In this document: piece by piece, positions 27,354 through 29,505 of the stretch
Layout: each line of letters opens with the position of its first letter
Numbering within the stretch: position 1 is the first letter of the stretch
DNA from: Phaffia rhodozyma
Lineage: Eukaryota; Basidiomycota; Tremellomycetes; Cystofilobasidiales; Mrakiaceae
Direction: 5' to 3'
Length of the DNA stretch: 64,000 nt
Assembly (NCBI GenBank): GCA_014706385.1
Contig: JACGZH010000001.1
Coordinates: 930,001 to 994,000 of the forward strand
Notes under the pieces: model-generated
Told to the model about the DNA's origin: nothing
What the model saw: only the letters and a program-made list of their open reading frames with translations
The model's database searches: none
Program-made: the position numbers and the translations under genes

Positions 27354-29505
27354 TTAGGCAGTAGCAGCGATTTCGTTGGCTTTGAAAAGAAGACCACCGG
27401 TCTGAGAAATCTCTTTTTGGATGGCCGTGATTTCTTGCCTGGGTACCGTAGAAAACCATCAATTTACATATATGAGTCTATATTTTGCCATCCACAGATT
27501 GGAGTAGAGGGAAGAAAACCGACTGTTTGATTTCTCCGTCTTCGGCCTCTTTCTCGAGGGGCCAAACAAGGAACTCATTGGTGTAGTTCTGCTTGAAATC
27601 ATTAGGGACGATCCCGAGTCGCTTGGCGTATCCAGTGACCTGGGAGTAAAGCCGTCGAACAGAAGAGAATCAATAAACATCGTACTCAAGGGCGAATTTG
27701 ATTAAACGTACCTTGTTCCAGTCTCGAGAAACGTTTGCAAGGTCCCTGCTCATATAGTTGAAAGACCTATCATATTGAAGCGCGTTGATTCGGGTGTTCA
27801 TAACAGGCTGGATATGAAATAAGAGTCACAAATGTGTCAGCTCACATCTCGGAGTGTTTGAAAAGAGCGTATTCGGAATCACCTTGAATTCGACATATCG
27901 CTTCCAGGCGGCAACCGGATTGGCCAACATGAAGTCTGTTCCACGCTTGATGGCCTTCATGACTGCAGCGGTTTCTTTAGGATGAGCGTCGATCCAGTTC
28001 TCATTACCAATGAGCAAGATCTGCAGAAATCAAAAAGCGAAGCAGTCAGTGTCAAAGTAAAACTTGAAAAAACCCTGTCATAGGCTGAACATACCGAGCA
28101 GAAGCAGCAGCATCCAAGAGCGGGGTTGGCAAGCTTGTCAATTCGGCTTGAATAATGAAGATAGAGCGAGTCAAAGTTAAGTCTCAGATTTCGGCAACCT
28201 CTACAAAGTGAATCTTGAGATGGAAACTTACTGCATACCGACATCGGTGATAGGTCGTCCCTGGGAGATCAACCATTGCTCTAACTGTAAAGAAGATGGA
28301 CGAAGTAGGAGAATTTTGATGAAAAGGACAATAGTGAGTACGGACGGAAGGGGGAGGGGTAGAAGACTGGCTTCCTCTAAAGCATTCTTAGCCACGCGGT
28401 CACGTGGTCAAGTTCAGGCGATGTAATCTCAGCACTCCGAGCATCAAGCCAGATTCTCAAAACACCTCACATCATTCTCAGTAAAGCGAAGAATGTGAGA
28501 TGAAAGAAGAACCGGCGGCTTCGAAGGCACTCGCTGCTTCAGGGGAATGCCCTGGGAAGAGGAGCCTACTAGTAAGATAGCGTGGTGCTACAAAGATGGG
28601 CCCGCTGACTTTTCACATGCGCGCGCGTGCAAAAAAAAACTTTTTGTGCTTCGAGGAAGAGGTGACCAGTCAAGGAGAGATATCTATCGTACCTCGACCT
28701 GCTGGACTGAGAGGTCCCCAGATAAAGATTCATTGCAAGCAAAGCAAAATGTCCAGTTAGTTGACGGCTGTGAGAATAGACCTTGATGAGTTGATTGAGG
28801 AGACAAAGGTACTGTTTTCAAGACCGACTCCGGCATCGATGTTGCCCGAAATAAGGTTCTCAGCGATGGCCATACCACATCGGACGGGGGTGTAGTCTTC
28901 AGGGCCCCATCCGTAGGCAGCGGTGATCTCATCGATTTGGATTTTTCCGAATTCTCCGACATAACCAATCCTCTTGCCCTTGAGAGTTTGGAAATCCTCA
29001 GTCAAGCCGTTTTGCTTGAAGGAAAGGAAAAGGCTTATGAGTCACAAACAAAGAGGGAGAAGAAACTTAAAGAACACACCTTGAGGTAGAGAACACCAGT
29101 GAAGGGTTCATCCATCAGCGTTCCCAATGACTTGATGGGGAAGCCTCGAGACTTTCCAGCAATAGTATGGATGAGAGCTGTGGAATAACATGTCTGGGAT
29201 CAGTTTGGTCTTGGATGAGAAAAGAAGTACATTGATAGACTGACCCTTAACGCCAAGGTTGGCGTTACCCGCTCCAATCAACTCAGTAACATCGGAAGGG
29301 TCGCTAAAGACGACGTAGAAGATTTTAATGTTTGATCAGCCTATGACAGTGTATCACAAGCACAAACGACTACTCACTTGGGCTCCAAGATGGCGACCTT
29401 GACGCCCTCATCTTTGAAGTACCCATTGGCCTGAGCCATGAAGATGGGAAGATGATAGGCGGTGGCCTTCCAGTTGAGGAGGAAAGTGACTTTATCAGTG
29501 GACAT
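27354..29505 (-). CDS. THI5: 4-amino-5-hydroxymethyl-2-methylpyrimidine phosphate synthase (Thi5/Nmt1 family)
   Basis: Eleven exons: 29378-29505, 29245-29303, 29080-29177, 28813-29014, 28693-28706, 28232-28284, 28095-28146, 27883-28020, 27712-27807, 27524-27639, 27354-27438; 346 residues, matching the usual 340 or so. This enzyme makes the pyrimidine half of thiamine from PLP and its own histidine. Family marks are [18 protein letters not shown] at the start, [31 protein letters not shown], the iron-binding GCCCFCS cluster, and [17 protein letters not shown] near the end. Exon 5 is just 14 nt (residues IQQVE) and is followed by a 408-nt intron, four times the local norm, which holds the apparent TPP riboswitch. 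That intron opens GTACGATAG, so retention stops translation after two extra codons. In yeasts and moulds this family is repressed by thiamine. Confidence 0.95.
28382..28551 (-). ncRNA. Putative TPP (thiamine pyrophosphate) riboswitch aptamer in THI5 intron 5
   Basis: Read on the minus strand inside the intron 28285-28692. P1 is formed by GGCATTC (28551-28545) and GAATGC (28387-28382). P2 pairs GCGA (28534-28531) with TCGC (28421-28418). The conserved GUGC follows P2 (28530-28527). P3 pairs CTTCGA (28526-28521) with TCGGAG (28440-28435) and carries an 80-nt variable arm, as is common in fungal TPP aptamers. Then come the invariant CTGAGA (28432-28427), ten bases, TGAACTTGA (28416-28408) as in fungal TPP aptamers, and P5 CCACG/CGTGG (28407-28403 with 28396-28392). 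All elements occur in the canonical order in a thiamine gene. Deviations: two extra bases between P3 and CTGAGA, an atypical L5 (TGACCG) and a weak P4. No covariation test was possible. Confidence 0.8.

Follow-up and report, generated by a model that had tools for sequence, protein, structure and literature searches.

A TPP-type aptamer with a changed pyrophosphate pocket in a coding intron of THI5 from Phaffia rhodozyma

Does the long fifth intron of the THI5 gene of Phaffia rhodozyma (Tremellomycetes, Cystofilobasidiales) carry an aptamer of the thiamine pyrophosphate (TPP) family, and might such an aptamer control the removal of the intron in which it lies? Both had been proposed in a sequence-only reading of a 64,000-nt stretch of contig JACGZH010000001.1 (positions 930,001 to 994,000, assembly GCA_014706385.1; hereafter the window). 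TPP riboswitches are described as the sole riboswitch type found in eukaryotes (PMC5997356; PMC5882874).

The THI5 gene and its fifth intron

The THI5/NMT1 gene (HMP-P synthase) was modelled on the minus strand at 27354..29505, with 11 exons and 10 introns encoding 346 amino acids, including a CCCFC motif that we take to be the THI5 active-site motif. Its identity is based on a structure search, in which residues 1-334 of the product matched THI5 structures (best match 4h65, E 6.5e-135); an NCBIfam search of the product returned below-cut-off substrate-binding families alone. The product of the THI5 family, and hence of the present gene, is presumably HMP-P. When the whole genome (19.77 Mb, 15 contigs) was searched with the PF09084 profile, all three matches lay within this gene and no second THI5 copy was found, with 4 of 4 candidates scored.

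Intron 5 (28285..28692, minus strand) is 408 nt long, while the other nine introns of the gene measure 65-106 nt. The sequence-only reading had placed it between the residues VE and LE, which is borne out, and its phase is 0. The authentic 5′ splice site, S1 (GAG/GTACGA, 28687..28692, intron nt 0), scores 5.1, below all 13 other donors of THI5 and THI4 (5.4-10.3), a comparison that is biased against S1 as the donor matrix was trained on those 13 introns with S1 excluded. The third intron codon is an in-frame TAG stop (28684..28686, intron nt 6-8). A candidate second 5′ splice site, S2 (AAA/GTCAGC, 28604..28609, intron nt 83), also scores 5.1, as does a GT at intron nt 227 inside the P3 arm of the aptamer described below. 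Either retention of intron 5 or use of S2 is predicted to yield a product that ends in ...IQQVEVR before the stop, 169 amino acids long.

This predicted N-terminal piece, with its final VR included, was used as query against protein databases, and two environmental proteins bear on the intron. P0241, a 169-amino-acid JGI environmental protein from a 1529-base contig, is 78% identical over the whole query and ends ...GLENIQQVEVR, exactly where the stop in intron 5 predicts; its own end is independent of the query. P0242 (201 amino acids) reads through an intron-4-like stretch and continues into ...VQQVEVRLRWSLAEHPW, with VR at the junction. The set of junctions comprised the window's own protein and the matches listed (120 of 1155 and 120 of 259), 241 in all, of which 205 were readable by script. 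Among these matches listed, VR was found in 2 of the 205 (P0241 and P0242 only); LE was found in 187 and LA in 13, and the others carried LG, IE or LQ. In this part of the protein, the Puccinia sequences are 88-90% identical and those of Naganishia 84-86%. The two proteins thus come from environmental relatives, probably basidiomycetes, which would have an intron at the position of intron 5 with a similar start, its first two codons reading VR. P0241 and P0242 are 95% identical over 160 amino acids, and because P0241 lacks the intron-4 stretch of P0242, it probably derives from a transcript in which intron 5 was kept. The alternative is that P0241 arose when gene prediction read through the intron in genomic DNA, and P0242 demonstrates that such read-through products exist in the database.

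A TPP-type aptamer with a changed pocket

The aptamer occupies 28377..28542 on the minus strand (166 nt from P1 to P1′) and was delimited by an unconstrained minimum free energy fold together with a structural descriptor. P1 is formed by CUGAAGCA and UGCUUUAG (8 bp), with the strands CTGAAGCA at 28542-28535 and TGCTTTAG at 28384-28377. In the Rfam layout P1 adjoins P2 and P1′ starts 2 nt after P4′, and this corrected P1 fits both. The P1 given earlier (GGCATTC/GAATGC) had to be abandoned, as it overlaps P4 and leaves a 10-nt linker before P2; a piece with the corresponding ends (28382-28551) folds best into another structure, with GGCAUUC paired to GAGUGCC. The remaining parts of the proposed order are all present in sequence: P2 (GCGA/TCGC), GUGC, P3 (CTTCGA/TCGGAG), CTGAGA, TGAACTTGA and the P5 hairpin. 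The UGAACUUGA strand is a mark of fungal TPP aptamers.

When the isolated 166 nt were folded without constraint, the best structure (-61.6 kcal/mol) was the TPP three-way junction with P1, P2, a long P3, P4 and P5. The junction with Rfam spacing was obtained from this isolated piece, on which the evidence for the aptamer fold is based, and not from the fold of the whole intron. The extended P3 arm (28441..28520) separates the two six-base strands of P3 by 80 nt and contains a further copy of CUGAGA. J3/2 carries CTGAGA intact at 28427..28432, where it forms the pyrimidine-binding T-loop (UGAGA), and the equivalent of G19 lies in GTGC at 28527-28530, so that the pyrimidine pocket is complete. 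The P4-P5 arm, which is the pyrophosphate sensor, spans 28387..28412 (CTTG/TAAG and CACG/CGTG, with TGACCG as L5).

The letters of the motif taken as sole evidence are close to background and were set aside in that role. The pattern CTGAGAN{0,25}GAACTTGA occurs once in the window and also in 5 of 100 shuffles; genome-wide it was found 9 times versus 6 times for the reversed pattern, and the other genome match with the same 25-nt length (L002) had no Rfam match. The geometry is more telling. A descriptor that demands TGAGA, Rfam spacing, at least 5 bp in P1 and 4 bp each in P2, P4 and P5 matches the window once, at the intron 5 aptamer. When the window was shuffled 2016 times with its dinucleotide content kept (258 Mb in total), this geometry appeared 16 times without the UG/C letters and never with them; the descriptor was written after the element had been seen, and its spacing is that of Rfam except for one optional base after UGAGAU, which is used here. 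The resemblance to a TPP aptamer, geometry included, is not due to chance.

The covariance model fails to detect the element. RF00059 has no match in the window at its gathering score (54.3) and none at E values up to 1 in the 3025-nt piece that holds intron 5. A 601-nt scan yields 13.9 bits (E 5.7) with the 5′ half wrongly placed, a non-significant score that formally counts as a refutation on the terms of the sequence-only reading. The low score is probably explained in part by the long P3 and in part by the changed pocket and loop; RF00059 is reported to give often incomplete fungal aptamers when P3 exceeds about 60 nt (PMC11683625). The claim of a TPP-family aptamer in a THI5 coding intron thus stands on its fold, its geometry, the gene in which it lies and the further TPP aptamers of the genome, and has the RF00059 score against it.

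The pocket itself is altered. Ten highly conserved positions are named for TPP aptamers (U39, G40, A41, G42, A43, U59, G60, A80, C77 and G78; PMC3764141), and by manual mapping onto that numbering 8 of the 10 are kept in intron 5. The two others are an exact swap (C77 to G and G78 to C), so that GC stands in J5/4 (28391..28392) in place of the CG of TPP aptamers. In the pyrophosphate pocket, U59, G60 and A80 are therefore kept and C77 and G78 are changed. C77 and G78 are described as contacting the pyrophosphate and its metals (PMC3764141; PMC7824784), with one metal bound by G60, C77 and G78 and direct contact between G78 and the pyrophosphate (PMC3764141). Two Gs spaced 18 nt apart are reported as conserved in fungal aptamers (PMC5882874), whereas the THI5 element has C at the second of these. 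Owing to the swap, C28407 is predicted to be able to pair with G28392, which would lengthen P5. L5 reads UGACCG and is neither RUAAUR nor a UAAU loop of the kind that docks into P3; a fungal amino-acid transporter group is likewise described as being without RUAAUR (PMC11683625). TPP as the ligand is consequently not established, as two changes fall among the ten most conserved positions, both of them in the pyrophosphate pocket.

For comparison, CG was found in J5/4 at 79 of 80 bacterial TPP places, collected with a pattern that stops before J5/4 and demands a TAAT loop (80 places in 79 of 80 loci, from at least 119 stretches). The lone exception, on a bacterial contig (L055), has AT in J5/4 and may be an incomplete aptamer.

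The P. rhodozyma genome holds further TPP aptamers. One lies on the minus strand at L035:5889-5981 (G000:C9:1714388-1714480), on the strand of THI4 and some 860 nt before its ATG, and is perhaps located in a 5′ leader intron. It scores 42.9 bits (E 7.3e-6) and is thus also below the RF00059 cut-off of 54.3; its J5/4 is CG, its loop contains UAAU, and its P5 (CACG/CGTG) is the same as that of the THI5 element. A TATA-like box is found nearer to the THI4 ATG than the aptamer, at about L035:5170, and L035:1721-1849 gives an IRES_VEGF_A match (27.8 bits, E 0.0046) that is far below the cut-off of 160, purine-rich and was taken as chance. Another aptamer, on the minus strand at L157:1478-1590 (G000:C1 near 460115; 25.0 bits, E 0.28), precedes an open frame that matches PF00083 (Sugar_tr) and resembles the TPPsw-SUGAR group. 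Its CG and UAAU are intact, in a search whose pattern demanded TAAT and GCG; only the THI4 aptamer is therefore an independent control for CG and UAAU, and aptamers like that of THI5 elsewhere would be missed by this pattern.

The broader searches were of uneven reach. A whole-genome RF00059 search (49 of 771 candidates scored) returned nothing; because a direct scan does detect the 42.9-bit THI4 aptamer, which this search missed, the negative result was not used. A canonical core pattern (built on a consensus, with up to 3 mismatches) had no match in the whole genome, and a looser pattern (TGAGA...GAACNTGATC) had 18 matches versus 3 for the reversed pattern. On those loci a loose descriptor gave many chance-like scores of 15-16, with the THI5 element on top at 17; it gave nothing for the THI4 aptamer and is thus not sensitive. 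In viral_contigs, a search with the Naganishia THI5 protein found no related DNA, and two fungal TPP patterns had 0 and 1 matches, the single match (L034) being blank in the loose-descriptor scan.

The competing fold and the proposed switch

With short exon flanks added, the whole intron folds differently from the isolated aptamer. In its best fold (-136.9 kcal/mol) an arm in the 5′ part of the intron is paired with the 3′ half of the aptamer: 28584..28671 on the minus strand forms 59 bp with 28365-28437 (intron nt 21-108 with 255-327). Enforcing the aptamer in the whole intron costs 11.3 kcal/mol in the model. In the equilibrium ensemble, the probabilities range from 0.59 to 1.0 for ten sampled pairs of the duplex and from 0.00 to 0.001 for six sampled pairs of the aptamer, drawn from P1, P2, P4 and P5. 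The duplex energy (-66.0 kcal/mol) was reached by none of 300 shuffles in any of three tests (either arm or both shuffled) and at 2 of 1500 real window places of equal geometry; with a shorter 3′ arm, 21 of 1000 shuffles were at or below the observed energy. The arm includes GAAGCA (28647..28652), an α-like element: the same six bases also occur in the 5′ strand of P1, and in the duplex this second copy is paired to the P1′ segment.

The two folds treat the two donors differently. GUCAGC of S2 (28604-28609) pairs with the J2/4-P4 strand in the competing fold, and its modelled mean unpaired probability rises from 0.15 in the free intron to 0.40 with the aptamer enforced; that of S1 is predicted to stay nearly constant (0.30 and 0.27, respectively). 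In the duplex state, S1 is separated from the 3′ splice site by about 100 nt along unpaired ends (21 + 80), similar to the gene's other introns. The idea that removal of the intron is under control has indirect support from a modelled competing fold that masks S2 and from an environmental THI5 whose end coincides with the stop near the start of the intron.

We consider the chances slightly better than even that intron 5 is a working TPP-family riboswitch that acts on splicing and has a remodelled pyrophosphate pocket; its most likely ligand would be TPP at reduced or altered affinity. Without ligand, the 5′ arm of the intron would pair with the 3′ half of the aptamer, and this duplex would leave a path of only about 100 nt between S1 and the 3′ splice site and bury S2, so that splicing proceeds from S1 and the THI5 protein is produced. 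Ligand binding would close the aptamer and free the arm, upon which S2 could open or the intron be retained; the TAG 6 nt past S1 would then end the protein at 169 amino acids. We infer ligand binding and the use of S2, and the direction of the switch by analogy with Types I-III as described in PMC5882874. This reading is based on the junction fold, the descriptor, the 8 of 10 conserved positions, the duplex, the S1 and S2 scores, P0241 and P0242, and the THI4 aptamer. It is weakened by the swap of C77 and G78, an L5 without UAAU, the gap of 11.3 kcal/mol and the RF00059 score below cut-off, and the change in the pocket is the serious objection to a working switch.

By our estimate, 11.3 kcal/mol exceeds the binding energy that TPP affinities provide at micromolar TPP at equilibrium, and a switch would for that reason need folding during transcription. 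The same figures can be read as a sign of loss. In the main rival explanation, which we hold to be a real if lesser possibility, the aptamer is vestigial: ligand binding has been lost, and the intron is removed constitutively by way of the long hairpin with some background retention. Both changed bases are pyrophosphate contacts, the ligand-free fold is far more stable with the aptamer unformed at equilibrium, and control of the pathway would remain with the canonical THI4 aptamer of the same genome. Predicted diatom TPP aptamers that look good are reported to be unresponsive in some cases (PMC9544697), a caution for the reading as a working switch. It is nevertheless difficult to see how five helices and a 59-bp duplex would have stayed intact through long neutral decay, and the P0241 product ends at the start of the intron, although retention can also be unregulated.

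The pocket could instead have been rebuilt for another compound. The UGAGA loop and GUG are unaltered, and the differences lie in the pyrophosphate arm; a kept pyrimidine pocket with a rebuilt phosphate pocket might sense a compound that has no pyrophosphate, such as thiamine, HMP or HMP-P, the last of which THI5 makes. A separate bacterial riboswitch class for HMP-PP has been described (PMC6478431). This explanation is based on a single sequence and appears unlikely; it would make the element a eukaryotic riboswitch that has departed from TPP to sense thiamine or one of its precursors, with the scaffold kept, CG inverted to GC and THI5 gated via the anti-aptamer duplex. Very improbable, finally, is a structured long intron that resembles a TPP aptamer by chance: its case is made by the RF00059 result (13.9 bits, E 5.7) and a letter motif near the genome background, against which stand the absence of geometry plus letters from 258 Mb of shuffles, an unconstrained fold that is the TPP junction and the location of the element in a gene of TPP synthesis.

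Relation to known fungal systems

As a splicing riboswitch, the THI5 intron would share features with several fungal systems. With Neurospora crassa NMT1 (Type I, RF00059) it has the gene family, the aptamer layout, the long P3 and CUGAGA in common, and a P4-P5 strand that pairs near the donor in the ligand-free state is described for that type (PMC5882874). In contrast to NMT1, the THI5 element lies in a coding intron and not in the 5′ leader, its stop is in the main frame and not in an upstream open reading frame, and C77/G78 and L5 are changed.

Type II (N. crassa NCU01977 and urea transporters) is characterized by a long-distance α/α′ pairing (PMC5882874). The THI5 intron resembles it in that part of the 5′ strand of P1 is repeated close to the 5′ splice site and this copy is paired to the P1′ segment. 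The complementary element is thus present, but the α consensus RGCGGYRRY is absent from intron 5, the gene is THI5, the intron has 408 nt versus 650-900, and the duplex spans most of the aptamer's 3′ half.

Type III is described as an internal intron of 200-400 nt with a stop between two donors and as not yet observed experimentally (PMC5882874). Intron 5 has this layout, being internal and 408 nt long, with an in-frame stop just past S1 and, before the aptamer, S2 as the candidate second donor; it differs in its long competing duplex and changed pocket. Thiamine-dependent splicing is reported for Candida parapsilosis DUR31, in which a coding intron of 351 bp holds a TPP aptamer and a premature stop lies between the donors (PMC5997356). 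Both aptamers lie in coding introns with a premature stop, whereas DUR31 is a transporter gene of an ascomycete.

The element places an NMT1-group TPP-type aptamer within the coding region of THI5 in a basidiomycete. Among the medically relevant fungi covered by a 2024 survey, no basidiomycete is said to have the NMT1-group TPP riboswitch (PMC11683625), and a 2018 survey gives riboswitch-regulated NMT1 for only three non-ascomycete species, of which two appear in its figure on Basidiomycota (PMC5882874). The main texts of these two surveys name neither Phaffia nor Xanthophyllomyces, and among the titles retrieved on TPP riboswitches in fungi, Tremellomycetes and Phaffia/Xanthophyllomyces dendrorhous none concerns an element in a THI5 intron. 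The intron combines a well-defined predicted competing fold with a natural double change at two pyrophosphate-holding bases. A working switch would be an example of how such a pocket can be remodelled, and a non-working one would be a eukaryotic riboswitch caught during its loss.

A minor observation concerns the annotation of the gene. No protein identical to the Phaffia THI5 was present among the matches listed (120 of 1155 and 120 of 259), although the THI4 protein assembled from this genome matched thiazole synthase of P. rhodozyma with 100% identity over 359 amino acids; annotation of THI5 in this species may have been impaired or masked by the unusual intron.
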